Below, in pieces: positions 5,901-26,147 of a stretch of 40,177 nt of DNA (the stretch's first letter is position 1; each line of letters starts with the position of its first letter). Position numbers and translations under genes: made by a program. Under the pieces are notes generated by a model. It searched no databases. It had not been told where the DNA came from and was given only the letters and a program-made list of their open reading frames with translations. Source of the stretch: Sphingobacteriia bacterium (GTDB lineage: Bacteria; Bacteroidota; Bacteroidia; NS11-12g; UBA9320); NCBI GenBank assembly GCA_008080835.1, contig VMDK01000095.1, positions 1 through 40,177 of the forward strand. Reading direction: 5' to 3'.

Positions 5901-6271
5901 TGTATTCCACTTTGAGCAATATCAGAGATGAGAGTGGTTTGATCGAATTTGAGAAGGAACTTCAGGATCGGTTCGGACCTCTGCCGCTTATGGTCCGAGA
6001 ACTGGTCGACACCATGCGGATCAAGCATTTAGGTATTCAACTCGGCCTTCCAAGGATCAAGATCAAGAAGAGTCAGCTCCTCGCCTATTTCCCTCCCGAA
6101 AGCAACGAGAGCTACTACAAATCGGCTGAATTCGGAATGATCATCAGCAAGATCAATCAGCATCCCGACATCTTCAGTTTGAAGCAGAAAGAATCACAAC
6201 TCCTGTTGGTGATGCGAAATGCCGGCGTGACGCACAAGGTGATCGCCGAACGGCTTCGAATACTTGTATAA
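2996..6271 (+). CDS. mfd: Transcription-repair coupling factor Mfd
   Basis: 1091 residues. Mfd is a cytosolic translocase that pushes RNA polymerase off DNA lesions and recruits UvrA. Domains in order: a UvrB-like N-terminal module with SLRGGIIDIFSF (near residue 180), the RNA-polymerase-interacting CarD-type domain starting GDYVVHIDHGVGTFEGL (421), Walker A GDVGFGKT (569-576), the DEEQ helicase box (670), the motifs TATPIPRTLHFSLMGARD and QMRGRVGRSNRKAFCH, and a TRCF C-terminal domain. Slightly shorter than E. coli Mfd, as expected for this phylum. The ATG at 2996 is fixed by the promoter box just upstream. The next gene, metH, converges. Confidence 0.96.
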   Translation: MNTRELLQFYTEKQSTSDLLRELQSERTYVHLKGGVGSFYTLLAALLFQESEQSVYFLVPYIEQARYALQDLKHFLGKEDVWLLPSSFSKPFHTGMVDSNLVQERSEVLMRLQRSDEKHLLILTPDSIAEKVIQEEKLRKSSFELQIGATLDIEFLLEMLHEFAFEREDFVYEPGQFSLRGGIIDIFSFAHEYPFRIELDGREIESIRSFDPVTQLSVEEVKFTSIVPNIREESISGEKVPLFDYLDKDGIFFSPALKLFLETLKAGPEGEDPDPAMFDDTMALKKRIAYRRLIGGGSSPYKTPDFSIEYGMQAQPSFGKQFDLLIGHFQELQEKGTQILVLSETNKQIERLQTIFDDLGAHVRFSPLYHGIESGFRDEENKLAVYTEHQIFGRHYQFSGKRKFSKNQALTIKELSHLKQGDYVVHIDHGVGTFEGLQKMEMGGRIQEAVRLKYKNGDLLYVNIGSLHKVSRYTGKEGFEPRLNKLGSDAWQNLKRKTKKKVKDIARDLIKLYAKRKAKPGFNFSPDTYLQVELEASFLYEDTPDQSKATDDVKADMESPHPMDRLVCGDVGFGKTEVAIRAAFKAVCDSKQVAVLVPTTILAQQHYHTFRSRLEGFPVTVDYINRFRTTKQQNSTIAKLKEGKVDIVIGTHKLLNEKIQFKDLGLMVIDEEQKFGVSAKEKLKKLRVNVDSLTLTATPIPRTLHFSLMGARDLSIINTPPPNRQPIRTELHVFDTDILKTAIRQELKRDGQIFVVHNRVRDIYDLAATIEDLCPEARVAVGHGQMKGDELENVMLQFIEHEYDVLVATTIIESGLDIPNANTIIINNAHYFGLSDLHQMRGRVGRSNRKAFCHLFCPPLYSLTEDARRRLQAIEEFSDLGSGFNVAMRDLDIRGAGNLLGSEQSGFISEIGFDMYHKILDEAIQELREGEFSDLFDEQPAKRECQVDTDLDARLPDDYVQNISERLSLYSTLSNIRDESGLIEFEKELQDRFGPLPLMVRELVDTMRIKHLGIQLGLPRIKIKKSQLLAYFPPESNESYYKSAEFGMIISKINQHPDIFSLKQKESQLLLVMRNAGVTHKVIAERLRILV

Positions 6272-6275
6272 GTAT

Positions 6276-6301
6276 CAGTCACGGGTAAATACCCGCGACA
6301 G
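6276..6301. repeat. Imperfect 12+2+12 palindrome, dispersed repeat copy
   Basis: Arms CAGTCACGGGTA and TACCCGCGACAG around AA, with two mismatches. The reverse complement of this element recurs at 28783-28809 with a 3-base loop. It lies just after the mfd stop, between convergent genes, and may help end transcription, but no T-run follows. Right after it (6321-6334) is GACTACGGACAGTG, the right half of the hairpin repeat at 33205-33250. Confidence 0.7.
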
Positions 6302-6360
6302 TATGTGAGTGCTCTCTCAAGACTACGGACAGTGTTTATTTGATTGCTTCGTGTCTATTT

Positions 6361-6387
6361 CTTTGTGTCCTCCGTCTCTCCGTGGTT
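6361..6387 (-). repeat. CCACGGAG-type short periodic repeat
   Basis: Read on the minus strand this is CCACGGAGAGACGGAGGAC then ACAAAG, a run of roughly 9-base units related to CACGGAG. It lies 41 bases beyond the metH stop, in metH orientation. Related runs lie at 31825-31850 and 33106-33131, each just 3' of a gene on the sense strand. Confidence 0.65.
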
Positions 6388-6427
6388 CATTCCTCTTTGA
6401 CACAGAATAGAAAATTTATGAGGTCCT

Positions 6428-9091
6428 TTAAACGATGTAAGGTGCGAGCCACTTGGCCGCCTCGCTTTCAGAAATTCCTTTGCGCTTTGCGTAAGCCTTT
6501 ACTTGAGTGGAATCGATCTTCCCTACTCCGAAATAACGCGCTTCAGGATGTGCAAAATAGTATCCTGAGACACTTGCCGCCGGGTACATCGCACAACTTT
6601 CTGTAAGCTTCATACTTATCCTGTTCTCGACGTCTAGAATGTCCCAGATCGTAAGCTTCTCGCTATGGTCAGGGCACGCTGGATAGCCGGGTGCCGGACG
6701 GATGCCACGATATTCCTCACGGATCAGTGATTCGTTGTCGAGTGCTTCTTCGCTCGCGTATCCCCAATGCTTGATGCGCACCTCTCGGTGCAAATACTCG
6801 GCGAAAGCTTCGGCGAGTCGGTCTGCCAAAGCTTTCAACATGATCGAATTATAGTCGTCGTGATGTGCCTCGAATTCTCTGAGATGATCTTCGATCCCGA
6901 TTCCAGCAGTCACTGCAAACAACCCTATATGATCAACCGTACCGCTTTCTTTGGAAGCTATGTAGTCGGCCAATGAGTAATTTGGAACATTTGGTTTAGG
7001 ATCCTTCTGCTGTCGCAAGAAGTAGAGTGTCTCTTCTCCCTGGTCAGTCTTCACGATCACATCCCCGTCCTGTTCGTTAGCCGGAAACAGACCAAAGATC
7101 GCCTTGGCACGTAGCCATTTCTCGCTGATGATGCGATCCAGCATTTCTTTGGCATCCTCAAACAACTTTCTCGCCTCCGTTCCTTGCTCCTCATCTTCGA
7201 GTATGTTCGGGTATTTACCCTTCAGTTGCCAGGTTCTGAAAAATGGCGTCCAGTCGATATAATCACGCAACGTAGAAAGGTCCATATCACTGATCTCATG
7301 AATCCCCGGTTCAGCAGGTGCAGGAGCGGAGGCAACACTGCGATCTTCAATAGCCTTGTGCTCTACCACAGATTCGTATGGTGCCAGTTTCTTTTGGCTG
7401 TTCCTTTCCGCATATGACCTGGCCATTTCTACATATTCGGTCTGAATGATATCGGCATATGCTCCGCGATGCTCCTCTGAGATCAGTTTACCGGCCACGG
7501 TCACACTTCTGGATGCATCCAGGACGTGAACCACCGGATTCTCGTATTGGGGGTTGATCTTTACTGCGGTGTGCATCTTACTCGTGGTAGCTCCACCTAT
7601 GAGCAGAGGCACCTTAAAGTCAAGACGCTGCATTTCCGCCGCCACATGGACCATTTCATCCAAGCTCGGAGTGATCAGTCCGCTTAGACCGATGATGTCC
7701 ACTTGTTCCTCCTTGGCCACTTGAAGGATCTTTTCGGCAGGAACCATCACACCGAGGTCGATGATCTGATAATTGTTACAACCCAGAACGACTCCTACGA
7801 TGTTCTTCCCGATGTCGTGTACGTCACCTTTAACCGTTGCGAGGAGTACCTTTCCTTTAGCACTCCCTGCCTTCTTCTCCGCTTCGAGATAGGGCGTCAG
7901 GTAGGCCACGGATTTTTTCATTACACGGGCGCTTTTCACCACCTGAGGGAGGAACATCTTTCCGGAACCGAACAGATCCCCAACGATATTCATACCGTCC
8001 ATTAACGGGCCTTCGATCACCAGTAGTGGTTGTCCAAGCTTTTGTCGTGCTTCCTCGGTATCTGATTCGATGAACTTCGTGATCCCTTTTACGAGAGAAT
8101 ACTCCAAGCGTTTCTCTACCGTCCATGATCTCCACTCCTCGATCACCTCTGCCTTTTCGGTTTTGGTATTGTGCTTCTCAGCGTATTCGATCAGTTCGTC
8201 GGTTGCTTCTTCCCTTTTGTTGAGTACTACGTCCTCCACCAATTTGAGCAGATCCTTCGGGATGTCGTCATAAACGGTGATCATACCGGGATTCACGATC
8301 CCCATGTCCATTCCGGCCTTGATGGCATGATAAAGGAATACTGAGTGCATGGCCTCACGCACGGTATTATTGCCTCGGAACGAAAAGGATAGGTTGCTCA
8401 CTCCACCGCTCACACTAGCACCCGGGAGATTCTCTTTTATCCATTTGGTCGCCTGGATAAAATCGACCGCATAGTTTCGGTGTTCTTCGATCCCGGTAGC
8501 AATGGCCAGAATATTCGGATCGAATATGATGTCGGACGCAGGGAACCCGGCCTTTTCGGTAAGTAATTTATAGGATCGCTCACAGATCTCTATGCGTCGC
8601 TCGTATGTGTCGGCCTGACCTGTTTCATCGAACGCCATGACCACCACTGCAGCGCCATACATTCGAATACGTCGGGCCCGTTCGAGGAAAGCCTCTTCTC
8701 CATCTTTCAGACTAATGGAATTCACGATGCCTTTACCTTGAATACATTGCAGACCTTTTTCGATGATCTCCCACTTGGATGAATCGATCATCACCGGGAC
8801 CCGACTGATATCGGGTTCAGAGGCAATGAGGTTAAGGAATTTCTCCATGGCAGCAATACCATCGAGCATCCCTTCGTCCATATTCACATCGATGATCTGA
8901 GCTCCGTTCTCCACTTGATCACGAGCCACATCCAATGCTTCTTCGTAATTGTCGTTAAGGATCAGACGGGCAAATCGTTTGGACCCCGTCACATTCGTTC
9001 TTTCACCGATATTGATGAAGTTCTTATCGGAGCTGGCATTGAACGCTTCCAGTCCGCTAAGTCGTAAATTTTCCGATCGGTTCGAATTCAT
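6428..9091 (-). CDS. metH: Cobalamin-dependent methionine synthase, folate/B12/activation modules only
   Basis: 887 residues against about 1220 for full MetH. It starts directly at the methyltetrahydrofolate-binding domain ([14 protein letters not shown], 27-40), then the B12 cap, the B12-binding domain with [16 protein letters not shown] (cobalt ligand His425 in DVHDIGK), and the SAM-binding reactivation domain near the C-terminus ([20 protein letters not shown]). The N-terminal homocysteine-binding zinc domain is absent, and the promoter box at 9147-9154 rules out a longer start. Many Bacteroidota encode that domain as a separate gene; none is in this window. Cytosolic; with its partner it should methylate homocysteine to methionine. 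Confidence 0.93.
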
Positions 9092-9146
9092 GGTTTGGGT
9101 TCGGTTGTCCTTCAGTCCGGCTTCATTGCCTTCCGAGAAAGTGGTG

Positions 9147-9154
9147 CAAATATA
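9147..9154 (-). promoter_or_regulatory. -7 promoter box TATATTTG for metH
   Basis: Minus-strand TAnnTTTG match, 55 bases upstream of the metH ATG and 8 bases past the stop of the glycosyltransferase gene. It indicates that metH is transcribed on its own. Confidence 0.55.
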
Positions 9155-9162
9155 AAAGAGGC

Positions 9163-10647
9163 TCAGGGATCCTTTCGCTCGAGGATCTCGTAGCGTTTCA
9201 CATTGTGATCTTCCTCCAACAAACGAACCCTGAATTGAGTTTGGATGTAGTCGTTCACATTGCCCTGATGGATGATATATTTTTTCCCGGGAACGATGTA
9301 TTTCATCCTGTGCGCGAAGTCAATACTGCTCCCTTCATGATTCATCCAGTTCATGTAGAACTTGTTATGTGCGCAATACACAGTATCTACCAGAATGTGA
9401 TCCTCCAGTTTCTCATCGTTTCGGATCTTATCCCGCAGGAAATATGTCAATCGGTAATAGTCTCTGTCCCATGAGTATTCCTTAGGCTTAAACACCGTGT
9501 CGTACATTCTTGAATAAGGCTTGAATCCTGTTCCAAGGATGAACAAAGCCATAAAAGGTATCAGATATTTTCTCAAATGAACCTTTAACAAGAAATCACT
9601 GAAGATCCTGAAAACACCGAGGCTGGTCACAAACGCGATGAGAGGAAATGTTGGGATATCGTACCATGGCAATTTGGTTTGAGCGGAACTGACCACAAGT
9701 AGGTACCAAACGGCAGCTGAAGTGAACAATGCGCTGATCATGGGTTCTTTACCGGTACCAAAGAACATCAGATATGCTGCAGCAGGTATGAAGAACCAAA
9801 CCCAGCCTCCCAAACGGGCAGGCAAGGCTGAAATATAGTATCCGAACGGATGACCATGACCTTCAACGGCGTCCAGAAGTCTGCCGCCGATCTCATTCTG
9901 ATATACAGCTTCCAAATAGCCCGGATTCACTGCTTCACGTATGAAGTAGTATGATATCGCCACCAATCCGGTCACAATGCATGCTACCCAAAATCGGAGT
10001 GATCCGAATTCCCGTGGCTTCTTTATAGCAACGAAGGGGACCAAAACCGGCAGAAATATCAATGCAGCCACTCCTTTGACCCAAAATGCAAATGCCACAC
10101 CTCCGAGGAAGAGATAGAAATACTTCGACATACGCCTCGGATCATATTCACTGAGGTACAGATAGAATTGATACAGATAAAAGAGGGTGGAAAAGCTCAA
10201 CAGGATATCGTAGTCTCCTGTACGGACACCATGCCATCCTACAAAACCCATAGAAGTAGCTAAGATCAGGGTTGCCAGTATCCCTGGGTAATAGGTATGC
10301 AGCTCGTTTCTCGACATATAGATCAGCAGGACACAGATAAACAATCCGGAAAGAGCCGAAGGTAGTCGTAGGGCCACTTCTTCAATACCCAGTAGTTTCA
10401 TAAAGCCCAGTTGCAACCACAGTAGAACCGGGGGCTTGGTGCACCACATATCCGGTCGTCCTTCAAAATGCGGCACCAGTAGCTCCCCTGTCAAGTACAT
10501 ATGCAGGGAGTTGGAAGCCATTCGTGCTTCATCCCAGATCCTAAGGGTCAGACCATCCAGGTGCAGGAAAAATGGGACATAGACCAGGAACAGTGCAATT
10601 CCGATCGCGCTCAGTAGAAGGATGAATTTTCTCCGGGCTAAAGCCAT
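9163..10647 (-). CDS. Membrane glycosyltransferase, ArnT/PMT (GT39/GT83) type
   Basis: 494 residues, polytopic. A hydrophobic segment (residues 8-26) is followed by the family's acidic loop motif WDEARMA (38-44), where the Asp-Glu pair binds the lipid-phosphate sugar donor and metal. Then come [18 protein letters not shown] and about ten more membrane segments, ending in a soluble C-terminal domain of about 100 residues. The family moves sugars from polyprenyl-phosphate carriers to lipid A, proteins or other acceptors on the outer face of the inner membrane. The acceptor cannot be told. The start at 10647 follows the terminator of the upstream gene; no clear -7 box was found. Confidence 0.85.
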
Positions 10648-10737: not shown

Positions 10738-13700
10738 TTAATCTCTGATCAGAGTAACTGTACCTGAGATCGGTTCTCCTCCACCATTTGGTTCCTCATT
10801 TTTGAGGGTGTAGTTGATGATGTAGAAGTATGTTCCTTCCGGACATTCCTTCAGACCTTCATTCATGATGGTACCATCCCAGTGCAGGTCAGGATCCGTG
10901 CTCTCAAATACGAGCTCACCCCATCTGTTGTAGATCTTGATCTCATACTCCGTTGCACCTTCTACTTCGATCTCGAAGTATTTGTTGAAGGCATCACCTT
11001 CAGCATCAGGAGTGAAGACGTTGTAAGGGATGATCTTCTTAATGAAGTTATTATTGATCACCTTACAAGTGGTATCCTTACATCCGAGATCATTCTCAGC
11101 TACAAGACAAACCTCCCACTCACCGATTCTTTCACCCCAGTTGTAACATGGGTTCTCTTCAGAACTGGTAGAAGTTCCATCTGCGTCCTCGAATGTCCAG
11201 AAGTACTTAGTTGCATTCTGTGACGTATTCTCGAAGCAGAATTCCGGTTTATCTTCTTCATCGATCTCAAAGTCTGCGATCACTTCCTGAACGATCACTC
11301 GTCCGGTGGCTGTGTCCACACACTTCGGTCCGAAGTCACCTGCATCCAGGTCATAATCCGGGATCATGCGCACATTATAAGTACCCGGTGAAGAGTAGCT
11401 ATGCTGTACGGTAGTATCCGGATAAGTAGCTGTCAGCGTATCGGTATCACCGAAGTCCCAGGTGAATCGCGTATAGATCGAATCCGACTTGGTCGTGTAG
11501 TTCACGATATCATGCGGACAAACGATCGTGTCGACGATCTCAATTCCCGCAGGAGTGATCGGACGAACGATCACCTTGATCTCACGCGGTGTCTTACCAT
11601 CGATCGTACTCGTGTCAGGGAAGAGGCGTGAACATCTGATATTGGTCCCCTCGATCTCATCGATCTGTATCAAGTGGAGATAGTAGGTTCCCACAGTGTT
11701 GTACGTATGTCCAACCAATTCATTCTTATCCTTAGTAGAGTAAGTGTTGTTGCTTGAGCTATCACCCCAGTAGAAGATCCAGTCAGGATCGTAGATAGGC
11801 TCTTTACTCAAGTTCTCGAGAGTTACAGAGTCACCCACACAGATCACGATCGAATCTTCACCCCATGGGTTGTTTCCACTGAATGCAAACTCAGGTTGTG
11901 GTCCCGGTACGAAGATCTGTTTCTCTATAGAGTCCACACAACCCAGTAACGAGTGTACCTTGAGTTTCACAGTGAACCATCCACTGGATGTATAGTCGTG
12001 AGATGGATCCTTCAGGATACTTCTTCTAGAACCATCACCGAAGTCCCACTCGTACCATACGATACTATCACATGGCTGGTCACATGAATCAACCGGACAT
12101 GGGTCAAATACTACTGTAGAATCGAAGAACGATACAATGTTCTTACAAGACAGCAACTGAGCGTTGTGCTCGAAGTTCGCCTTGATACCTGTTACCATTG
12201 CTGAGAGGAATGCAGTATCGCGACAACCGATACTATCTTTCATTGCTACAGCGATGGTGTATTCTCCCGGCTCATCATAGATGTGAGAGAATCGGATAGA
12301 ACGTTCAAAGTCAACGATCGAATCGTTCCAATCCCAGTCAACCGCTTTGGTCTCGATGTTATTGGCATATCGAGTTGGGTCTTCCCAGAATTTACGAGGG
12401 TCGATTGGGTAAGCCAACGGATCGAAATCATCACCGTACTGCCAGTAGCGGATACTATCATAGATCTCATGCCACATGCCTTTACACACGGCATCATCGA
12501 TCATTTTGAACTGATTCAAGAATCCAACATTGAGCAGCTTGGCATCGGATTTCTCACAACCCACAGTATTGTTGAGGAATACACCCGGGATCATAGGCCC
12601 GTTCGAATTCACCCAAACAGTATCAAATTCTGATCTGTCACAGTATTTCGTTTCGCGTACCTCAGGATGCTGATAAGTGAACTTATAGCAACCAGGGATA
12701 TACTCACCGCGCTTCCAGTTTTTCTCCCACTGTGTTCCACGACCAGTAGTGATGGCATAAGGTGCCAGCAATGTGTCGAAACCTTGGATAGAAGAATCTC
12801 TGAAGTGAAGCACTTCTTCGATGATCACAGAGTCTGTCTGAGCATCGTTGGTGTACAAGTATTTGTACTGACCATGCTCTACGGTATTCTCCGTGATACC
12901 CACCTTACTGAAGGTAAAGTACTGACTGATACCTGTTGTATCAATACAACCGAATGTACCGTCACCCAGGTAGAGTGCAACATCCTCCGGTGGAATATCC
13001 TGAATATCCAGTCCGAGTTGCTCAAATGCATCTTTAATGATGTCACCGGCACGCTCTGTATTTGCTTTCACTGTCCATTGACGGTAAATGCGTTTTACGA
13101 TGGTGTCTACCGGTTGAATTCCGAACACGTCGTCGATGGTGTAGCGTACCAATGTATTAGCCAACCAATTGTCGCTAGGACTCCAGTCAACATCTTCATC
13201 GTTACGTCCGTTCACAGGACCATTGTAATCCTGGAAGTATTTGTGCTCCTCGAAGTATCCCAGGAGACGATCCTGGTAACCCCAGTTCCAACGCAGGAAT
13301 TCGATACTATCCTGGATCGGATTGATGAAGCGGAACCATGCAGTTTCACCCGCACAGATCGCAAGAGGATCGTTATTAGGAACGAGGATCTCGAAGTCCG
13401 CATTCAAGTACATATAACGGAACATGTCGCTGTACCAAGCAGTATCCGTACACTCAGGAGCGATAGGATCACCGTTTGAATTGGTACGTGGAGGTCCGTT
13501 ACCGATGATCAAACCGATAGTGAACGATCCGTTAGGACGCTTGCTAGGATCTGATCCGATCTCACCGGAAGTATAACCTTTCACCCAGCTTGTTCCCCAG
13601 GCTCCAACGATATCGTATGGCAATACGAACGGAATTGGAATACCAGGAGGTGGAGGCGCTAGTACGCCACCGCTATTGTATGGGATCCAGTTATTAGGAC

Positions 13701-16380
13701 CGGTAAGTGAGTCGTAGTTAACCTCGAACCATTGCTGCGTACAACCGGGTTTCGTCTCGGCCATACTGAAGGTGAGGAAGTATTGGGTCTTATCCCCGTC
13801 GATCGGACAAGGGATACCACTTTCCCATTCCAGACCTTTCGCGCTTGGCGGGATCAGGGCAAGGGAAATAGTGTTGCTGCTCTCACATCGCAGTGGGTGC
13901 ACTGTATCCTTGTGCCAAAGCACTACAGTGTTACACTGAGCGATGTTCTCGAAGAACCACTGACGGTGAACCGCTGAATCGATCACGTACACCTGACGTT
14001 GGATCGTTGTTGGAATACCGTTGATCGTAGTGTCCACCAATACAGTACTGAGCTGTGCCGGAACCGTATCTTCAGGAGTGACTTCCATTCGGACCAGAGA
14101 GATGATCGAATCACCTTCCTCTATCTCAAATTGCTTGTCAACCTCCCATTCTACGGTCTTAGGACCGGTCACCCATTCGTACGTTGGTGGGTTCTTGCTG
14201 ATATCTTTCACTCGCACCGTCACACCGGAAGGCACGAAGAATTTCTGATCATCCTTGATCACAGTAGAGATCACTTCACCTTTGTATACGGTGCGTGGTC
14301 TCCACAGGTAGATCCTGTAATGCGCACTGTCAATGATCTCGGGATATTCGGTTTGTGCATCCACAACGAATGTGTCCGTTGCAGCTTGATTGCTGTCGTT
14401 GATATACGGGATCAATGCCGTATAGGTTGAGTCCCATGGCACGAACAAGTTGATCTCACGAGGAACGACCATGATGCTATCCGGGTAGACATTTACTTGA
14501 TAACAAGTACGGCTGTTTCTGCTGAAACGAGTTTGACGAACCGGACGAGTATAGTTCTGTCCACGCTGATAATAGCGATAGATCTCTTCCCATGGAGTAT
14601 ACCAGTGAACCGGCAGGGAATCAATGGTGAAGTTACAGTTCAGATCAACGTTCTTATTGGCATAGGTGTCTGTAGTACACTGAGGTGCATATTGGTCACC
14701 CAAGGTCCAGATACGCAGTACGTGATCTTTTCTTCGGATAGAAGGCACTCTAGGTACAGCTGTTTGATCATTAGATGGTGGATAGTTGAATACATAACGC
14801 TTGGTACCATCCAGTCCGTAGAAGGACTTCTCGTGATACGTAGTATTACCATTATAAACAACCACCAGACTGTCTTTACCGGCGTCATACCAGATCACAT
14901 AACCACGAGCTTTGATCGTATCAGTGAGCTTGTACGCATCGTAACCACCATTCTTGTCGAACAATAGCAAAGAATCCAATCCGGTTCTTTTGTTCTTTCT
15001 GACTCCGGCAATGTTGATATACTCATAAACTACTGAGTCCTCATCGTTGTAATTCGGGTCATCGTGATAGAAGGTAGAGTTGTTCACGAAGTGGATCGAA
15101 TCACGGATGGTACATTGGTATTTCTCTTCTTGAGGTACACGAACAAAAGGTACTTCGATCGTAGATGAAGGACCCACTTTAGTGATCGTGTCAAATACCG
15201 TCACATCACATGGTCCAACCACAATTCTCAGCGAGATCATCCAAGGTCCACCTCCATAATTATGGCAAGGAGTCCAATCGTCATCACTGAAGTTATCATT
15301 TCCGGAAGGAGGATCACCGAACCACCAGATGAATGATGCTCCAGGGATAGCTCCATCACGTAATCTGAAGCACACTTCAGGATCGCTGGTACATGCACTG
15401 TCTTTATCGGCCAGGATGACCGGATCGATCTTGATGTTGGTCGCTGCAGCTTTGTACGTGAATGTCTCGGAACATCCAAAGCGTGAATACACCGTCAGTG
15501 TCGCGTTGAACGTACCATTTTGCTTGTACCAGTATTCTACTTTACCGTCGTTGTTCTTGCCGGTCCAGTACTGGGTGTTGGTTACAGAGTCACCGATGAT
15601 CTTGTTACCATCTCCGAAATCAAAGATAAACTGGGCGACGTCTTTAAGCCCGATGGTAGTAGTAGGATCATTTAACCAGTTCTGGTAAGTCACGTTGGTG
15701 ATCGTGGCCAAAGTAGAATCACAACCCGTTGGCGCGTTACTGTTAAGGAGTACCCCCATCTTCGGCCAAACACGGATCATACTGTCGTACTTGATCTTGG
15801 TCACACAACCATTCGCATCTTCCAATTCCACAGTAACATCGAAGAATCCACCTTTTGGATCCTTGATCTCGTAACAGAATGTGTAAGGAAGTGCAGGGTT
15901 GATCTCCTCGATCAGTCCACCATCGCTAAAGAGATAAGTGGCACGAACGATCTGGCTACCCGGAGCAGGCAAACTGCTGTCCGCGTAACAGAAATTGTTC
16001 CCTTTGAAACATTGTTGAGCGTTGTTGAGCAACTGGAATTTCACAATCGGACTTGGCTTGACAACCACCTGAATGGTCTTTTCACATGGGTCAAGGAATC
16101 CTCTTGAATCCGTTACTTTCAACTTCACGTCGTACGTACCCGGTGCACCATACGTATACGACGGGTCACGTTGATTCGAGGTTCCTTTGGAATCCCCAAA
16201 ATCCCATGCCCAGGTATCGTATCCCGGTGCGTTGGATGTAAACGAAATAGCCGCTCCCACACACTCAGAACCCGTATACTTCGGGTTACACTGTGCAGAG
16301 GCGTCCACATGCCAAAATAGCATGAGTAATGTCGTGAGCACGAATGCCAACGACTTGCCTGTGTTCTTAATCATTTTCAT
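10738..16380 (-). CDS. Giant secreted PKD-repeat protein with T9SS type B (gliding-motility) C-terminal domain
   Basis: About 1880 residues from the ATG at 16380, which starts a clean signal peptide (basic MKMIKNTGK, hydrophobic core, DASAQ cleavage). The open frame continues up to an ATG at 16485, but that would bury the signal peptide. PKD modules are recognisable by WDFGDSKGT and GAPGTYDVKLKV near the start, by WDFGDGSRRS, and by WDFGDTDTL and SSPGTYNVRM nearer the end, with poorly conserved beta-rich blocks between. The last ~90 residues (NVFTPDAEGDAFNKYF, IYNRWGELVFES, WDG, CPEGTYFYII) form the gliding-motility-associated CTD that routes proteins through T9SS to the surface. Last gene of the sigma-factor unit. 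An adhesin or surface-matrix role is inferred. Confidence 0.9.
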   Translation of the reverse strand: MKMIKNTGKSLAFVLTTLLMLFWHVDASAQCNPKYTGSECVGAAISFTSNAPGYDTWAWDFGDSKGTSNQRDPSYTYGAPGTYDVKLKVTDSRGFLDPCEKTIQVVVKPSPIVKFQLLNNAQQCFKGNNFCYADSSLPAPGSQIVRATYLFSDGGLIEEINPALPYTFCYEIKDPKGGFFDVTVELEDANGCVTKIKYDSMIRVWPKMGVLLNSNAPTGCDSTLATITNVTYQNWLNDPTTTIGLKDVAQFIFDFGDGNKIIGDSVTNTQYWTGKNNDGKVEYWYKQNGTFNATLTVYSRFGCSETFTYKAAATNIKIDPVILADKDSACTSDPEVCFRLRDGAIPGASFIWWFGDPPSGNDNFSDDDWTPCHNYGGGPWMISLRIVVGPCDVTVFDTITKVGPSSTIEVPFVRVPQEEKYQCTIRDSIHFVNNSTFYHDDPNYNDEDSVVYEYINIAGVRKNKRTGLDSLLLFDKNGGYDAYKLTDTIKARGYVIWYDAGKDSLVVVYNGNTTYHEKSFYGLDGTKRYVFNYPPSNDQTAVPRVPSIRRKDHVLRIWTLGDQYAPQCTTDTYANKNVDLNCNFTIDSLPVHWYTPWEEIYRYYQRGQNYTRPVRQTRFSRNSRTCYQVNVYPDSIMVVPREINLFVPWDSTYTALIPYINDSNQAATDTFVVDAQTEYPEIIDSAHYRIYLWRPRTVYKGEVISTVIKDDQKFFVPSGVTVRVKDISKNPPTYEWVTGPKTVEWEVDKQFEIEEGDSIISLVRMEVTPEDTVPAQLSTVLVDTTINGIPTTIQRQVYVIDSAVHRQWFFENIAQCNTVVLWHKDTVHPLRCESSNTISLALIPPSAKGLEWESGIPCPIDGDKTQYFLTFSMAETKPGCTQQWFEVNYDSLTGPNNWIPYNSGGVLAPPPPGIPIPFVLPYDIVGAWGTSWVKGYTSGEIGSDPSKRPNGSFTIGLIIGNGPPRTNSNGDPIAPECTDTAWYSDMFRYMYLNADFEILVPNNDPLAICAGETAWFRFINPIQDSIEFLRWNWGYQDRLLGYFEEHKYFQDYNGPVNGRNDEDVDWSPSDNWLANTLVRYTIDDVFGIQPVDTIVKRIYRQWTVKANTERAGDIIKDAFEQLGLDIQDIPPEDVALYLGDGTFGCIDTTGISQYFTFSKVGITENTVEHGQYKYLYTNDAQTDSVIIEEVLHFRDSSIQGFDTLLAPYAITTGRGTQWEKNWKRGEYIPGCYKFTYQHPEVRETKYCDRSEFDTVWVNSNGPMIPGVFLNNTVGCEKSDAKLLNVGFLNQFKMIDDAVCKGMWHEIYDSIRYWQYGDDFDPLAYPIDPRKFWEDPTRYANNIETKAVDWDWNDSIVDFERSIRFSHIYDEPGEYTIAVAMKDSIGCRDTAFLSAMVTGIKANFEHNAQLLSCKNIVSFFDSTVVFDPCPVDSCDQPCDSIVWYEWDFGDGSRRSILKDPSHDYTSSGWFTVKLKVHSLLGCVDSIEKQIFVPGPQPEFAFSGNNPWGEDSIVICVGDSVTLENLSKEPIYDPDWIFYWGDSSSNNTYSTKDKNELVGHTYNTVGTYYLHLIQIDEIEGTNIRCSRLFPDTSTIDGKTPREIKVIVRPITPAGIEIVDTIVCPHDIVNYTTKSDSIYTRFTWDFGDTDTLTATYPDTTVQHSYSSPGTYNVRMIPDYDLDAGDFGPKCVDTATGRVIVQEVIADFEIDEEDKPEFCFENTSQNATKYFWTFEDADGTSTSSEENPCYNWGERIGEWEVCLVAENDLGCKDTTCKVINNNFIKKIIPYNVFTPDAEGDAFNKYFEIEVEGATEYEIKIYNRWGELVFESTDPDLHWDGTIMNEGLKECPEGTYFYIINYTLKNEEPNGGGEPISGTVTLIRD

Positions 16381-16415
16381 TGATCTTTGATTTCGGTTAA
16401 TGCCTGTAATTATCA

Positions 16416-16444
16416 GGCGGCCCTTTAGCTCGCTAAAGCCCGCC
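16416..16444. promoter_or_regulatory. Stem-loop between the anti-sigma gene and the giant gene
   Basis: CTTTAGC (16423-16429) and GCTAAAG (16432-16438) form a 7-bp stem with a 2-base loop, and GGCGG (16416-16420) pairs with CCGCC (16440-16444) outside it. It lies in the 109-base gap before the chosen start of the giant gene. No T-run follows on the minus strand, so mRNA processing, protection or attenuation is more likely than termination. Confidence 0.55.
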
Positions 16445-16489
16445 AAAATAGAGTTATAATCTGTCTTTTTCAAGTAATTAAACATGTCT

Positions 16490-17794
16490 TTACTTTACGA
16501 GGATAAGTCGCCCGTATTTAGTTTCTTCTTTCCCACCATTGCTGTACTTCAGCACGTAGTTGTATCTTCCTTCCGGTAACATCTCTCCTTCATTCATCAA
16601 CTGACCGTTCCAGTACTCGTTCTGGTCGGTCGTTTCGAACACCAATCGGCCACTGTTACTGCGTATTTGCATGTGGTAACTCTTGACCGGATCAAGACGG
16701 ACCTCGAACACATCGTTCTTGCCGTCCTTGATATATGGTGAGAAGATGTCTCCTGCATCAAAATCTATCTTGTCTTCCCAGGAGCATTCGACAGTCTCTT
16801 CGATCGTGTCCTTACATCCTTTGTCATTCACTGCGATCATTACTACATCGTGGTCGCTGTAGTTCTCACATTCGTATTCCACAACTCCGTCAATGGCCGT
16901 TACTTCGATATTGTTCACGAACCAGGACTGCTGCGCCACATCTCCCTGAGCTCTGAGGATCAATCGACCCTTTTCGGATTCGCTAACGATGGATGCGTTG
17001 GTTCGCTGAACGTCAATGATATGCTCGATCTGGACCGGATGGCCATCCTCCGTAAAACGTAGTTTCAACACATGCTTTCCGGCACGAGGGAAGTAGAAAT
17101 TGTAGCGCACTCCACCGACGGCAACCAGTTTGTCGTCCAACCACCACTGTACGCCGTCAGCGTAAATATTCTCGCTATTCTCACTTCTGAGCACCGCTTC
17201 GGATGTGTTTCCTTCACAGACCACATTCGACATCTCAATGGTATGTGGAACGCGGACATGTTCGTCATCCGGTGTATCGGCAGATCCATCCTGAGTATCA
17301 TCGGTCATGGTCGGTGTCTCAGTGGACCCACCATCTGTCGCTTCTGTATATCCGGCTTCGGCCGAACCTGAAGTCGCACTCTGCACGGTGATATCAGAAC
17401 CGTTCGATTCTGTGTTGCGTTGACTCGAAGCTTCACCAGTCTCTGGAGATACTTCGATCGCATCTTTCTCGCCAATAGTTTCTGATGGACTTTCCTGATC
17501 AGTCGTAACCTGATCTTCGGTCTGGGTGATCACCGTCTCCTCAGATACCGGAGTTTCCGGCTCTTTATTGAGAAGGGTCACTGCAGCTGTAACTACGATC
17601 GCTGCACCGGCAACAATAGCTGCCCATTTCCCGATGATGGCTTTACCGGCCACTCCTGCAGCACCGGTTCCCGCTGCACCGGAAGTACCGGATCCAACTC
17701 CCTCCCAAACGGAAGGAGGCACAGGGGTCTCAGCCCCACTCGCCATCTCGCGGATCAGTTCGTCGAATTCCTGTATGTGCTTCTCTGTGCTCAC
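16490..17794 (-). CDS. Anti-sigma-type membrane protein with periplasmic T9SS type B-like C-terminal domain
   Basis: 434 residues. Residues 1-35 form a cytosolic segment with FDELIREMASG and PPSVWEGV, a pattern common at the N-terminus of Bacteroidota anti-sigma-like proteins. One membrane helix follows (about 52-75), then a low-complexity Ser/Thr/Glu stalk (about 80-180), an Ig/PKD-like part with cysteines, and a final ~85 residues (DIFSPYIKDGKNDVFEV, SGRLVFETTDQNEYWNG, LPEGRYNYVLKY) that align by eye with the C-terminus of the giant protein. The ATG overlaps the end of the sigma gene (ATGA-type), showing translational coupling. No zinc-binding HxxxCxxC is seen. The anti-sigma role is inferred from position and the N-terminal motif. 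Confidence 0.75.
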   Translation of the reverse strand: MSTEKHIQEFDELIREMASGAETPVPPSVWEGVGSGTSGAAGTGAAGVAGKAIIGKWAAIVAGAAIVVTAAVTLLNKEPETPVSEETVITQTEDQVTTDQESPSETIGEKDAIEVSPETGEASSQRNTESNGSDITVQSATSGSAEAGYTEATDGGSTETPTMTDDTQDGSADTPDDEHVRVPHTIEMSNVVCEGNTSEAVLRSENSENIYADGVQWWLDDKLVAVGGVRYNFYFPRAGKHVLKLRFTEDGHPVQIEHIIDVQRTNASIVSESEKGRLILRAQGDVAQQSWFVNNIEVTAIDGVVEYECENYSDHDVVMIAVNDKGCKDTIEETVECSWEDKIDFDAGDIFSPYIKDGKNDVFEVRLDPVKSYHMQIRSNSGRLVFETTDQNEYWNGQLMNEGEMLPEGRYNYVLKYSNGGKEETKYGRLILVK

Positions 17795-18327
17795 TTTTGT
17801 GCTTTGATCACTTTCTGCAATTGATTACGCGCTTTGAACAGCTGCGTTTTACTCGTACTCTCTGAGATCTCCAATTGCTCGGCGATCTCCTTGTGCGAAT
17901 AACCTTCGATCACGTACATGTTGAATACGGTACGGTACCCATCAGGCAGAGCCGCGATCGCTTTCATAAGGTCCGCGAGTTGCAGGTTACTCAGACTTTT
18001 CGGGTCGACCCCTTCCTGAATATCCTCAATGTCGCCAAACTGGGCCGACTTCGATTTTCGCAGATGCTCGATCGCAGTATGAACAACGATCCTGCGACAC
18101 CATCCCTCAAAGGAACCGGCAAAACGGAATGAACTCAGTTTTCTGTAAATGCGGATGAACGCGTCTTGCAACACGTCCTGAGCATCGTGATCTGAATTCA
18201 TATATCGAAGTGCAACCGTGTACATTTTAGGCGATAGTTGTTCGTATAAGGTCCTGAATGCCAATTGATCCCCGGCCAGACTCTCCTGAATCAGCCGGTT
18301 TTCTATATCTCGATTTTTCGAGGTCAT
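17791..18327 (-). CDS. ECF-family RNA polymerase sigma factor
   Basis: 178 residues. Region 2 includes the AFRTLYEQLSPKMYTVALRY helix and DAQDVLQDAFIRIYRKL, then SFEGWCRRIVVHTAIEHLRK for -10 recognition. Region 4 includes LPDGYRTVFNMYVIEGYSHK and EIAEQLEISESTSKTQLFKA, a helix-turn-helix for the -35-like element. The length is typical of ECF factors. It heads a unit with the overlapping anti-sigma-type gene and the giant T9SS protein. I found no standard TAnnTTTG box upstream, which would fit autoregulation from a sigma-specific promoter, but that is inference. Start chosen at the ATG at 18327. Confidence 0.92.
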   Translation of the reverse strand: MTSKNRDIENRLIQESLAGDQLAFRTLYEQLSPKMYTVALRYMNSDHDAQDVLQDAFIRIYRKLSSFRFAGSFEGWCRRIVVHTAIEHLRKSKSAQFGDIEDIQEGVDPKSLSNLQLADLMKAIAALPDGYRTVFNMYVIEGYSHKEIAEQLEISESTSKTQLFKARNQLQKVIKAQK

Positions 18328-18401
18328 TAAGAATGATCATTTGACAGACTTTTCCCTAAAGATGGGACTTTGCCCCCATGGGTTGCCTGAGATGTACTTT
18401 T

Positions 18402-18866
18402 TTATTGAATTTTTTTCGCTCCGTATTTTTCGCTGAGATACGGCACGAGTGATTCGGCATAAAAACCGATGCTCTCTATGGGTTCGATGATCTCCACCCT
18501 ATTGATCCCATCGAGCAATCTTCGGTACTGGATCGCGGCCATATTCTCCTCGAAATTTACGGTAAAACTTCCATAGAACATGTGGAAGTTCATGTACAGG
18601 ATCTCCTCCAGGAATTTTTGCCGCAAGGCAGGTTCATCGGGCAGAAAACAAACCGGTGATACGACCTGAAAGATGGCCGCCGGCTCCGGACCCTTGAAGT
18701 ATTCCCACTGCTGATGCTCCTCGGGTTGCCATATGTCGACATAGATCTCAACGGTATTTCTATGTACCAGCCATTGTCCTTCTCCTTCGCAACGTGCATT
18801 TGCGGGTTCTACCCCTATGGTCTCCAGTGCGTCCTCTACTTTCTCCGAATACGGTTTCAAATCCAT
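18402..18866 (-). CDS. YbjN-like protein (type III secretion chaperone-like fold)
   Basis: 154 residues from the ATG at 18866. The pattern of a short N-terminal helix, WLVHRNTVEIYVDIW strands, a middle block FQVVSPVCFLPDE, a helix LRQKFLEEILYMNFHMFYG, and then SFTVNFEENMAAIQYRRLL with long C-terminal helices resembles YbjN / SycN-type chaperone-fold proteins. Their roles in Bacteroidota are unknown. The open frame runs up to 18920, but a -7 box (18872-18879) overlaps that extension, so 18866 is preferred. The gene diverges from the caspase-like gene. Cytosolic, no signal peptide. Confidence 0.7.
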   Translation of the reverse strand: MDLKPYSEKVEDALETIGVEPANARCEGEGQWLVHRNTVEIYVDIWQPEEHQQWEYFKGPEPAAIFQVVSPVCFLPDEPALRQKFLEEILYMNFHMFYGSFTVNFEENMAAIQYRRLLDGINRVEIIEPIESIGFYAESLVPYLSEKYGAKKIQ

Positions 18867-18871
18867 GTGGG

Positions 18872-18879
18872 CAAATTTA
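18872..18879 (-). promoter_or_regulatory. -7 promoter box TAAATTTG for the YbjN-like gene
   Basis: Minus-strand TAnnTTTG match. Only 5 bases (CCCAC) separate it from the ATG at 18866, so transcription may start at or next to the start codon, giving a leaderless message. Confidence 0.55.
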
Positions 18880-18924
18880 CACTCTGCCGTTGAGCCCTCT
18901 GCATTTCCAATGCATACCATTTCG

Positions 18925-18985: not shown

Positions 18986-21900
18986 TTGTTCAGTTCAGGA
19001 CCAAATAGCAAGAAGGTAATCTTCACCTGTCTCTGGGGGATCCTTGTTCTTTTTAACGGATCCCGGGTCTTTGCTCAATCCTCCGAGGTGGCGCAACGCA
19101 CATTCTCCGAAGTAGAATCCGTCCTTCAGGGCCCGGAGATCAATGAGAAAAAGGCGGAACGATTGCTCGAAAAATGCATCGACACGGAGCTGGCCACGGC
19201 TGCACCTGACAACACCTTTCTGGCAAAATGCCATCTCCAGCTCGCCGAATTGTATACCGACCTGAACACGGAAGGCAACAAGAAATACCGAAACCTTTGG
19301 AAGTCGGCGGTCTACACCTATCGCGAAGATCAAATGGACCGCACCGGTCTCATGCTTCAAGATGTGGCTGAACACATTGGACGAATGACCGATTCGAATT
19401 ATCGGTTCGATCCGTTCAATATTCCCGCCACGGAAGGCAAGAAAGATTATCAATATGTAGGCATACGAAGTGTGCGCAAGCTGAACTCCGATTCATTTGA
19501 GATCGTGATCAATGCCGGCTCGGCACTGGGACTCAGTGTCGGACAACGAGGTGGGATCCTGACTGCATCCAACAAGCTGGATAAGGATCGGGGCAACAAA
19601 GTATTTGGGTCTCTCGAGATCATTCGGGTCAGTCCGTCTTTTGCAAAATGTATCGCCGTAAGAGATCCCAAAATAGCGGTGGATCTGTTGGCCGGCGACA
19701 ATGCATGGGTACAACTGAACATGCCCGACCGCCTTTATAAAGGCCTGCTTTACGAACTCGCAACGCTGAATATCTTTTTCAAGAACAGCTATCGAAAGGA
19801 TTTCTATCATCCGCTACAAGTGCGACTGGTGGATGACCCGTCTGACGAGAACATCTTCTACGATGTAATGCTCGCTGATGTGATCTCAACGGCAAAGAGT
19901 TTGTACGACCCTAACGATGAACAAGACACGCTGCAGCGAACCATAAAATCTGGACGATTCGAAGGTTTGAACATGTGGGAAGCGATGCTCAACAGCACAA
20001 CGAGTGACATCCGTGCATTCTTCCGTTTCGTATCCAAGTATCCTGCAAAATACATGGGACGCTCGTTCCGTCTAGATGAGACTTACGCAACATGGATCAT
20101 CAATAATTCTCCCTCCTCGGATTATTACAACGACGAGGCGACGAACAACGAGGCGACCTATTTGATGCGTGATTACAATGAGTTTGGCGCCGCAGACTTT
20201 GCCAATTGGTCGGAGGAGAACAAATACTACTTGAGCCATGCCAAATTCTTGCAATCGAATCTCACGGAAGCTGTGAACGGCTATTTATCCGAACACAAAT
20301 ACGACACCTGCAAGCGCTTACTCGATCAGTTTGGATCCTTTGCGCGCGAGTTGAATGATACATCGATCCTCAGTGCGATCGCCTACGGATCCGGCCACTA
20401 TCAAGCCTCGCAGAATGAGGCGGAAAAGGCCATTGAACATTACACCGAAGCCCTGAACCTCGGGGTGGATGTGCTCAATGCACATTGGTGGCGTGCGGGT
20501 CAGTACGAAAAGATCGGTTCCTACGGAAATGCAAGGAAGGATTTTGAGATCGTGATCGAAGGTGCGCCATTTTATGCAGCCGGCTATGGCTCGCTTGGCT
20601 GGACCCTACTAAAGATGGGCAAGTTCAAAGAGGCAGATCAATACTGCCGAAAAGCTTACGAATTGGATAGCTCTGAAATGGCCTGGACGGTCAATCTGGG
20701 ACATTGTCACCTTCTCCTGGGAAGAGACGATTCAGCTCGCCTTTTCTATTCGAAAACGCTCGATGCGATCAATTACGAATCTGGTTTCAAAGAAGGCATC
20801 ATCGCGGACTTTGAATTGTTCATGGAAAATGGCTGGAAAGAAGATGCCGTGCTCCGACATATGGCATTTGCGGAGCAGGAATGGAACCGTCACTATAAGT
20901 ATAAAGCAAGAGCCAAGGAATACTACAACAAAGGTCTGGATGCCCGAAATGCGAGCCAGCATGAAACGGCATGCCGCTACTTCGACTCGGCCATCAATAA
21001 TGTGCTCAAGGGAGACCACGTCAATTACGGTCGACTTCGCCACTACGAGCGATTTGCCGGAGCCAGCTACTTCTCCGTCAAGAATTACGAGCGTTCTGTC
21101 AATCATTATCGCAACGCCTGGAAGTTGAGTTCGGACCGCTTGCGAGATCTGGATGACCAGTTGGACGATCTGCGCGATATCAGAGTCGTGTACCAGTACA
21201 TGGAAGACGAACTTTCCACAAGCATGTTTCAGCAGCTGCACCACTTTGTGGACCGCCGCATTGACGAGAATGAAGGCAGCAACAACCTCTACGTGGTAGC
21301 CATCGGTAAAAACGATTACCAGGGCGGCTCCTACTTATATGCTGAATCTGATGCCAAAGACCTGGCTGCTGATCTGGGGAAAGTAGGAAAGACCGTCTTC
21401 GACACCGTATACTCTTCTTCATTCATCGGGAATAATGCCGACCCTTCCGAAATCCGAAAAGTGATTCAGAAGATCAAGCGCGAATCGCGATACGGAGATT
21501 GCTTCGTGTTGTATTTCAGCGGATATGCTCAGGCTGGTGAACTATCGCTGGGAGATAATTCCATTGCGACCTGGGAGCTTTATGATTGGCTGCACACCAT
21601 GCGAGCGCAAAAGCAATATATCATACTCGATGCTCCTGATTGTCGACTCATCCATGAGCTCAATGCCAAGGATGCTGCATTCAATTCCGGAGAAAGTAAA
21701 AGAGACCTGAACATCATTACCAACAACGGAAGCCGGATCGAGATCGAAGACGACAAGCACGGTCTGCTTTCGAAATGGGTGATCCGAGCTATTTCGGGCG
21801 AAGCTGTGCCTGGCACCAATAGCGTAGATCTCAGTGCCAAAAAGCTCGAGAGCTACATCTTTGCTTCCATACGCGAGCGCAACGAGCCATTGCAGCTGAA

Positions 21901-23053
21901 CACCTATAGTTCAGGACTCGATTTCAATATCGCACGCTATCCCGGGATGACACGCACATCGACCGATACGATCCCACCGAGGATCGAGCTGTACCAGAGC
22001 AGTTTTACGTATGGAACCCGAGGAGGCAAGTCCACCACAATGGACCAGGAACCGGTAATAGAAGGTCGGGTATTGGATGAAAGTCCGATCGCCATGGTGG
22101 AAGTGAACGGAGTGAGTACTGCCCTTGCGGCAAACGGACGATTTGCAGTGAAGGTGCCCGCAGCCATTCTGGAAGATGTGCGCATCAAGGTCCGTGATGT
22201 GGCCGGGAATGAGAGCTTCTCAAGGTTCGATCTGACTTCGACCAGTGACGTACGTGGGTCATCTACCGCACAAGACAAAGCAGGCAAGAATTACGCAGTT
22301 CTTTTTGCGACCGACGACTATGAAGAATGGAGCGATCTGAACAATCCGATCAACGATGCGGAAGAGATAGGCTCACTTCTGCAGCGCTTCTACAATTTTG
22401 AGGTGAAGATCGTCCGGAATCCGACCAAAGAAGAGATGGAAAAGGTTCTGTTGAATTACTTGACCAAAGAGTACTCTCCAAACGATCAGTTGTTCCTCTT
22501 TTTTGCCGGACACGGCATAAACGACAAGACGCTTGCCGGTCAGTTGGTATGTACCGACACCAAGCTGGAGGATCGACAGAGCTTACCAACCTACGTACCT
22601 TTCAGCTTCATTACCGACAACTTCGATCGGAACAATTGCAAGCATGTGTTCCTGGCATTTGATGTGTGTTTCGGGGGTGCTTATTTCGATCAGACCTTCG
22701 CACCGAAATACGTCGATTCGGATATCGAGCGCATTGGCGTGGATCAGTTCATTCAACGCAAACTGAAGTACAAGTCACGCCAATTCCTGACCAGCGGGAC
22801 CAACGAATATGTTCCGGACGGAACACCGGGTGCTCATAGTCCATTTGCCGGAAAATTCATTGAGACACTGAAAAATGGCAGCGACAAAGGTTACCTGACG
22901 CTGGTGGATTTCGTGGACCACATGCGTCTGATCTCCACGGAAGTCAATTACGGAACATTCGGTAGTCATCATCGAGATGGGGAATTCGTATTCCGCTACT
23001 CAGACGACGCTAGAGTGGTGCAGCAGGCTTCGGGTTCTTTCGAGATCAATTGA
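18986..23053 (+). CDS. Exported TPR protein with two tandem caspase-like (C14) domains, the first degenerate
   Basis: 1355 residues. It starts with TTG: the frame has a stop at 18965-18967 and no ATG before the signal peptide (KKVIFTCLWGILVLFNGSR, VFAQ). Residues to about 450 are uncharacterised, with a small beta domain near 150-215. TPR-like helices span about 470-600. The first caspase-like domain starts near NLYVVAIGKNDYQGG (767); it has FSGYA where active enzymes have GHG (Tyr847) and DAPDC where they have D-x-C. A short Ig-like bridge follows (about 990-1095). The second domain, from KNYAVLFATDDYEEW (1101), keeps FFAGHG (His1176) and DVCFGG (Cys1228). So one dead and one probably active cysteine peptidase lie in one chain. 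The targets are unknown. Confidence 0.85.
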   Translation: MFSSGPNSKKVIFTCLWGILVLFNGSRVFAQSSEVAQRTFSEVESVLQGPEINEKKAERLLEKCIDTELATAAPDNTFLAKCHLQLAELYTDLNTEGNKKYRNLWKSAVYTYREDQMDRTGLMLQDVAEHIGRMTDSNYRFDPFNIPATEGKKDYQYVGIRSVRKLNSDSFEIVINAGSALGLSVGQRGGILTASNKLDKDRGNKVFGSLEIIRVSPSFAKCIAVRDPKIAVDLLAGDNAWVQLNMPDRLYKGLLYELATLNIFFKNSYRKDFYHPLQVRLVDDPSDENIFYDVMLADVISTAKSLYDPNDEQDTLQRTIKSGRFEGLNMWEAMLNSTTSDIRAFFRFVSKYPAKYMGRSFRLDETYATWIINNSPSSDYYNDEATNNEATYLMRDYNEFGAADFANWSEENKYYLSHAKFLQSNLTEAVNGYLSEHKYDTCKRLLDQFGSFARELNDTSILSAIAYGSGHYQASQNEAEKAIEHYTEALNLGVDVLNAHWWRAGQYEKIGSYGNARKDFEIVIEGAPFYAAGYGSLGWTLLKMGKFKEADQYCRKAYELDSSEMAWTVNLGHCHLLLGRDDSARLFYSKTLDAINYESGFKEGIIADFELFMENGWKEDAVLRHMAFAEQEWNRHYKYKARAKEYYNKGLDARNASQHETACRYFDSAINNVLKGDHVNYGRLRHYERFAGASYFSVKNYERSVNHYRNAWKLSSDRLRDLDDQLDDLRDIRVVYQYMEDELSTSMFQQLHHFVDRRIDENEGSNNLYVVAIGKNDYQGGSYLYAESDAKDLAADLGKVGKTVFDTVYSSSFIGNNADPSEIRKVIQKIKRESRYGDCFVLYFSGYAQAGELSLGDNSIATWELYDWLHTMRAQKQYIILDAPDCRLIHELNAKDAAFNSGESKRDLNIITNNGSRIEIEDDKHGLLSKWVIRAISGEAVPGTNSVDLSAKKLESYIFASIRERNEPLQLNTYSSGLDFNIARYPGMTRTSTDTIPPRIELYQSSFTYGTRGGKSTTMDQEPVIEGRVLDESPIAMVEVNGVSTALAANGRFAVKVPAAILEDVRIKVRDVAGNESFSRFDLTSTSDVRGSSTAQDKAGKNYAVLFATDDYEEWSDLNNPINDAEEIGSLLQRFYNFEVKIVRNPTKEEMEKVLLNYLTKEYSPNDQLFLFFAGHGINDKTLAGQLVCTDTKLEDRQSLPTYVPFSFITDNFDRNNCKHVFLAFDVCFGGAYFDQTFAPKYVDSDIERIGVDQFIQRKLKYKSRQFLTSGTNEYVPDGTPGAHSPFAGKFIETLKNGSDKGYLTLVDFVDHMRLISTEVNYGTFGSHHRDGEFVFRYSDDARVVQQASGSFEIN

Positions 23054-23531
23054 CCACAGGCTTGAATCCTTCAAAGGCCTGCTTACAAGAATTACAATAG
23101 TGCAGACTGCGGCATAACGTCGGACCGAACGGACTGTTCAAAGTCGTGTCGTCACTTCCGCAATAAGGGCATTTAGTATCCTCGAGGATCTCCATATTGA
23201 GCGCAGAGCAATTGCGTTTTGGCGGTGCCAATCCGTGTTGTAAAAGTGCTTTGTGCCCTTCCTCCGTGATGAGATCCGTGCTCCATTGTTTTTCGAAGGA
23301 AGTCTTTACCTCCACTTCACCGATGCCATCTTCCTGCTTGATACGATCCGAGACCATCGTCTCCATGATCTTGAGCGCAGGACAGCCGGCAAAGGTCGGG
23401 GTAAGTTCCACGAACACATCATTGCCATCTACCTTGATGTCGGTGACGATCCCAAGGTCGACCACACTGATGGTTGGGATCTCAGGATCCTTAACCTCTT
23501 TCAGTATTTCTCTGATCTCGCTTTCTGTCAT
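23046..23531 (-). CDS. paaD: 1,2-phenylacetyl-CoA epoxidase subunit PaaD
   Basis: 161 residues. The N-terminal part is a MIP18/DUF59-type domain (VKDPEIPTISVVDLGIV near residue 13, then ELTPTFAGCPALK). The C-terminal part has paired cysteines CPYCGSDD and LCRSLHYCNSCK that bind metal or an Fe-S cluster. PaaD is needed to mature or support the PaaABC oxygenase that epoxidises phenylacetyl-CoA. It follows paaC by 8 bases and ends the operon. Its last 8 bases overlap the end of the convergent caspase-like gene. paaE, the flavin/ferredoxin reductase subunit, is not in this window. Confidence 0.92.
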   Translation of the reverse strand: MTESEIREILKEVKDPEIPTISVVDLGIVTDIKVDGNDVFVELTPTFAGCPALKIMETMVSDRIKQEDGIGEVEVKTSFEKQWSTDLITEEGHKALLQHGLAPPKRNCSALNMEILEDTKCPYCGSDDTTLNSPFGPTLCRSLHYCNSCKQAFEGFKPVVN

Positions 23532-23539
23532 GGATATTC

Positions 23540-24313: not shown

Positions 24314-24318
24314 AGTGA

Positions 24319-24690: not shown

Positions 24691-24702
24691 TTGTAATTGC
24701 GT

Positions 24703-26091: not shown

Positions 26092-26147
26092 GATTCTAAT
26101 AGATATATGATCGGTAGTCATTCGGGCGTGCACTGAACAATTTAATC

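Follow-up and report, generated by a model that had tools for sequence, protein, structure and literature searches.

The window analysed here, a stretch of 40,177 nucleotides, carries three genes on the minus strand in the order ECF sigma factor (17791-18327), one-helix membrane protein (16490-17794) and giant PKD protein (10738-16485). The initial annotation had described three same-strand genes, the first two overlapping by 4 bases, and the open reading frames lie as described: the sigma stop codon overlaps the membrane-protein gene, which starts with GTG, in the letters GTGA at 17791-17794. The 178-aa sigma factor was matched by Pfam Sigma70_r2 (E 5e-17) and Sigma70_r4 (E 6e-18) and by TIGR02937 (105 bits), and in a tree it grouped with the sigma factors of the same three-gene unit in relatives. 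The second gene encodes a presumed anti-sigma factor of 434 aa that ends in a T9SS type B C-terminal domain (CTD), and the third a giant T9SS type B cargo in which Pfam detected six PKD_4 stretches and a CHU_C domain at residues 1820-1898 (E 3e-17). The CTD of the cargo (10741-11028, minus strand) also passed TIGR04131, with 39.8 bits against a cut-off of 35. The length of 1,880 residues first given for the cargo holds when it is counted from an inner ATG just before the signal peptide (10738-16380), but the open reading frame caller extends the gene to 16485 and gives 1,915 aa. These data support a single unit in which the sigma factor and the CTD-bearing membrane protein are translationally coupled and joined to a type B cargo.

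Several further features were observed around the unit. The stretch ahead of the cargo signal peptide (16380-16485, minus strand) is an open, putatively coding extension of 35 codons, which is open in many relatives as well. A hairpin lying between the genes for the membrane protein and the cargo was considered and dropped, as its fold z-score was -0.5 in the window and ranged from -5.3 to +1.0 among relatives; within the same stretch it is strong in some relatives (z -5.3 in locus L046) and not in the window. Divergent from the sigma unit, a plus-strand gene at 18986-23053 encodes a 1,355-aa protein that combines TPR repeats with two caspase-like (Peptidase_C14) stretches. It is followed on the minus strand (23046-27137) by phenylacetate-degradation-type genes, with PaaA_PaaC found twice and a PaaD-like gene, and a 476-aa protein with a Por_Secre_tail T9SS domain is encoded among these Paa genes at 24703-26133.

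The membrane protein can be divided into five parts, all encoded on the minus strand. Residues 1-56 (17627-17794) form a presumed cytoplasmic, sigma-binding segment with the motif FDxLFKxxL...PPxVWxxV, delimited from alignments and the AlphaFold model, in which helices were predicted at residues 6-19 and 28-34. Only the motif is conserved in this segment, and its putative function is to bind the sigma factor. Residues 57-75 (17570-17626) are the sole hydrophobic stretch by hydropathy, in agreement with the single membrane helix that had been proposed, and all 34 relatives tested likewise have one such stretch only. A low-complexity tether, predicted to be disordered, follows at residues 76-183 (17246-17569; most of residues 36-153 had a pLDDT under 50), then two Ig-like domains at residues 184-336 (16787-17245; pLDDT mostly above 90) and finally the CTD at residues 345-434 (16493-16762). 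The model, built with 45 relatives, had a mean pLDDT of 74, with low to moderate confidence over the first 70 residues, a dip to about 77 at residues 341-350 and values mostly of 89-97 in the CTD from residue 345. Alignments of relatives confined conservation to the N-terminal motif and the CTD; the middle varies freely and may be present or absent, and the Ig-like domains are missing from shorter relatives of 280-300 aa. Among 87 proteins from two taxonomic orders, the CTD was always the end of the protein and its distance from the helix was never less than 116 residues. About 56 hydrophilic residues precede the helix, and judged by hydropathy only there is no Sec-type N-terminal signal peptide. 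No FecR domain was matched in the membrane protein by Pfam, even at E 1.

The initial annotation had suggested comparing residues 345-434 of the membrane protein with CHU_C/TIGR04131 domains, and a match was obtained for the first of these profiles: Pfam CHU_C (PF13585) matched residues 349-428 with 49.1 bits (E 6e-13) over a cut-off of 27, but TIGR04131 gave 26.7 bits, below its cut-off of 35. CHU_C was present in all 34 relatives of the membrane protein that were scanned. The resemblance between the C-termini of membrane protein and cargo, first noticed by eye, was confirmed as homology by profile-profile alignment with hhalign (99.9% probability, E 2.5e-35, 92 columns), whereas a middle stretch of the cargo, taken as control, gave 2.7% probability. 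When the CTD protein of the window was compared with its own genome, the cognate cargo ranked first among the other proteins with 58 bits, ahead of 51 bits for the one after it. A Foldseek search of the AlphaFold model against the PDB returned generic Ig-like matches only. The FTPNGDG motif is altered in the membrane protein and its close relatives (FSPYIKDG, FTPYYQDG). Together with the score below the TIGR04131 cut-off, this alteration suggests that the CTD of the membrane protein may dock otherwise than a secreted CTD. A vestigial or chance CTD was rejected, since all 34 relatives scanned retain the domain and it also occurs in a second taxonomic order.

The conservation of the unit was assessed by searching genome contigs with the cargo alignment, so that loci were not selected for the sigma or membrane-protein gene. 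Of the 77 loci recovered, nearly all from metagenome-assembled genomes according to their titles, 64 had enough upstream DNA to be evaluated. The ECF sigma gene, the CTD membrane-protein gene and the cargo gene directly followed one another in 62 of these 64 loci; of the remaining two, one holds a second copy of the cargo (L150) and the other a cargo of reduced length (L171). In an overlapping set restricted to the family and taxonomic order of the window, 39 of 40 loci had the same arrangement. The three-gene arrangement is near-universal in relatives and is conserved over long evolutionary distance. The second cargo copy, at 3582-9311 of its locus in UBA6063, is 57% identical to the cargo of the window and has no sigma or regulator gene upstream.

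The pair of sigma factor and CTD protein extends to a second taxonomic order, which was entered through a small CTD protein beside a sigma factor in one genome (G098, locus L214). This match came from a full-length profile search of 297 genomes of the phylum, in which most matches were free-standing CTDs and the other short CTD proteins examined had no sigma factor alongside. The CTD protein matched 35 of 60 relatives in the family of G098, and by hand count full-length matches were found in about 100 of the 249 genomes of the second order, complete one-contig genomes included. A sigma gene lies directly upstream of the CTD-protein gene in 28 of 30 second-order loci, the other two ending at contig edges, and it is adjacent in further second-order sets (26 of 26 loci, and most of 20 loci from several families). 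No cargo gene adjoins the pair in families f8, f54 and f60. In several loci of family f9 (L290, L295, L296, L300 and L306), the pair is followed in the cargo slot by an unrelated type B cargo, a NIDO plus CHU_C protein of 1,185-1,377 aa. These arrangements point to a core module of sigma factor and CTD-bearing regulator to which at least two unrelated kinds of type B cargo have been joined; given the pairs that lack a neighbouring cargo, control of cargo would not be the sole use of the module.

The genome of the window encodes the T9SS proteins SprA and GldM. It also encodes 25 CHU_C proteins over the cut-off compared with only 3 PorP/SprF matches, and thus many type B CTDs, probably including those of the membrane protein and the cargo, must share shuttles, unless shuttles went unrecognised. 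The operon itself contains no PorP/SprF gene. At five further loci of the same genome (L082, L084, L085, L090 and L091), a paralogous ECF sigma gene is followed by a gene for a one-helix, tethered protein with the layout of the Dma anti-sigma factors of Bacteroides thetaiotaomicron. Pfam OMP_b-brl_2 was over the cut-off in the protein of L090 and below it in that of L082; those of L084 and L091 are barrel-like by sequence appearance only, and that of L085 is truncated at the edge of its locus. In a tree, the sigma factor of the window was placed near the sigma factors of these barrel-type pairs. When the N-terminal motif of the membrane protein was searched against this genome, the top non-self matches were barrel-type proteins of the same layout, weak at E about 0.02 in a small set.

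These data bear on whether the membrane protein is a regulator at all. It could instead be a common T9SS surface protein whose signal-anchor is not cleaved, lying by chance between a sigma gene and a cargo gene and having no anti-sigma action; sigma binding is only presumed, and about a fifth of the family has no Trp in the N-terminal 45 residues. Translational coupling to a sigma gene in two taxonomic orders, the conserved cytoplasmic motif, the lack of a Sec-type N-terminus and the barrel-type paralogues beside paralogous sigma factors all speak against this reading, which we hold to be highly improbable.

A candidate ECF-type promoter was found on the minus strand in the intergenic stretch ahead of the sigma gene. 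Its -35-like element, GGCAACC (18381-18387), is followed after 16 nt by the -10-like element CATCTT (18359-18364), which lies 31 nt before the sigma ATG. The motif GGCAAC[CT]-N16-C[AG]TCT[AT], or a close variant, was present in the window and in 13 relatives, and the length of its 16-nt spacer did not vary among them. When up to two mismatches were allowed, it was found at 50 of 63 loci, compared with 1.1% of random 209-nt stretches; with up to three, it was found at 60 of 63, compared with about 7%. A related form, TGCAAC[CT]TTT...GTCT, precedes many second-order sigma genes. The strict pattern occurred once per genome, at the sigma-CTD protein-cargo operon, in four of six related genomes (G001, G005, G009 and G017); G014 had two occurrences and G020 three. 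In the genome of the window, a looser pattern gave 6 matches compared with 2 for a reversed control; besides that at the operon, one match (C76) has a suitable position ahead of a gene whose product is a putative secreted protein of 367 aa. No T9SS components were recognised beside the few other promoter matches. The counts and placement of the motif suggest that the operon is probably autoregulated with a narrow regulon. Directly upstream of the promoter lies a 172-aa gene (18402-18920, minus strand) with no Pfam match at E up to 1; it occupies the same position in loci of the family of the window, but in most of family f2 no copy was recognised next to the unit.

The layout of this CTD-bearing regulator has a described relative in Dma. 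The Dma (dual membrane-spanning anti-sigma) proteins have an N-terminal anti-sigma segment, a helix, a disordered tether and a C-terminal beta-barrel and are encoded beside an ECF21 (Das) sigma factor; Dma1 and Dma2 repress their ECF21 sigma factors, and deletion of dma2 increases vesiculation in a das2-dependent manner (PMC13088901). The protein of the window resembles them in its short cytoplasmic N-terminus, single helix, tether of at least 116 residues, C-terminal outer-membrane module, adjacent ECF sigma gene and occurrence in Bacteroidota. It differs in ending with a T9SS type B CTD where Dma has a beta-barrel, and in that the third gene of its unit encodes a giant T9SS cargo. By analogy it may therefore work in a Dma-like manner, yet it is not classed as Dma, because it has CHU_C where a beta-barrel defines that class.

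This likeness suggests another reading, in which the CTD would be a mere outer-membrane anchor, as the barrel is in Dma. The CTD would then dock once on a PorP/SprF-type barrel, and the regulator would sense the envelope or surface, such as the state of the outer membrane or a PorP-bound ligand, and not secretion traffic. Consistent with an anchor, the Dma layout is retained with only the end module exchanged (PMC13088901), PorP-like proteins hold type B CTDs at the surface (PMC9143113), and the pair stands without a neighbouring cargo in f8, f54 and f60. However, an anchor fits less well with the recurrent pairing, within one operon, with type B cargos of two unrelated kinds and with a promoter apparently dedicated to the cargo operon, which argues for sensing of cargo rather than of the general envelope. 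We therefore regard the anchor as rather unlikely, though a reading to be taken seriously.

Other known systems share parts of this arrangement. Type B CTDs bind PorP/SprF shuttles (PMC9143113); these CTDs depend on five conserved motifs, and one shuttle can be shared among orphan substrates (PMC12618676). As in SprB-SprF and PG1035-PorP, a C-terminal CHU_C domain is present, in the window on the membrane protein as well as on the cargo (PMC9143113, PMC12618676); in contrast to such cargo/shuttle pairs, the membrane protein has no Sec signal peptide and no adjoining shuttle gene. Like FecI/FecR, the unit pairs an ECF sigma factor with a one-helix inner-membrane regulator whose periplasmic part is linked to an outer-membrane transport system, although the FecR domain is lacking. 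In Porphyromonas gingivalis, PorA, a CTD protein, is upstream of PorXY-SigP; an ECF sigma factor and a T9SS-CTD protein belong to one circuit, and the CTD protein is coupled to T9SS gene expression (PMC7712824, PMC4800418). There, however, SigP is reported to be activated by PorX, and PorA is a surface protein acting via PorY, with no inner-membrane anti-sigma-CTD fusion. In Flavobacterium psychrophilum, an ECF-type promoter motif is common to a sigma/anti-sigma pair, gldN and porU (PMC9723704). No description of an anti-sigma factor bearing a T9SS CTD was found in the literature searched, and fusion to a CTD is not described for Dma, PorA or the F. psychrophilum pair.

The initial annotation had proposed a secretion-coupled feedback loop in which T9SS engagement or cargo backlog governs the release of the sigma factor. 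The data support a CTD-bearing sigma/anti-sigma-like pair in the cargo unit, and the autoregulatory promoter makes a loop plausible, but release on backlog is the less likely sign: with the cargo operon as the apparent main target, it would give positive feedback. With a blocked T9SS, the tethered CTD would be displaced and the sigma factor released, and T9SS capacity would be raised. Both the link between a CTD protein and T9SS expression in P. gingivalis (PMC7712824, PMC4800418) and the promoter motif that the F. psychrophilum pair has in common with gldN and porU (PMC9723704) offer precedents for such a response. In the genomes studied here, however, strict promoter matches hardly occur outside the cargo operon, the few other matches had no recognised T9SS component beside them, and making more cargo upon backlog would amount to runaway feedback. 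We consider a backlog sensor improbable.

We propose instead, as a reasonably probable account, that the tethered CTD reports whether T9SS or shuttle sites are free, and that the membrane protein is a sensor of spare capacity controlling its own sigma-anti-sigma-cargo operon. The N-terminal segment of about 50 residues would hold the ECF sigma factor in the cytoplasm, the helix would cross the inner membrane, and the disordered tether would reach over the periplasm to present the CTD to the T9SS translocon, a PorP/SprF-type shuttle or both, the sites that the CTD of the cargo needs. Since the membrane protein is anchored and hence not secretable, its CTD could report on free sites. With little cargo present and the sites unoccupied, the tethered CTD would be captured (and pulled or cut), the sigma factor released and the operon transcribed; new cargo would then outcompete the tethered CTD and shut the response down. 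The anti-sigma action is suggested by gene position, translational coupling and the precedent of Dma, and docking on the T9SS or a shuttle by the homology of the CTDs and the length of the tether. The competition for sites and the sign of the response we only infer. Spare-capacity sensing fits better than backlog sensing because the regulon looks like the cargo itself. Negative feedback is the most coherent sign, as the promoter points to the cargo operon as the main target and the opposite sign would push cargo into a blocked machine.

To our knowledge, it is not known outside PorXY-SigP how Bacteroidota match the production of huge surface proteins to the capacity of the T9SS. A sigma regulator that carries a secretion signal is a direct and genetically simple candidate for a capacity sensor, and it is conserved in two taxonomic orders. 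Its arrangement suggests that the secretion machine itself may serve as the sensor that sets the output of giant proteins. It further suggests a general rule, in which anti-sigma factors of Bacteroidota would exchange their outer-membrane end, a barrel or a T9SS CTD, to choose what is monitored. If this is true of the CTD regulators, the route of outer-membrane assembly would have its corresponding class in the Dma beta-barrel proteins.
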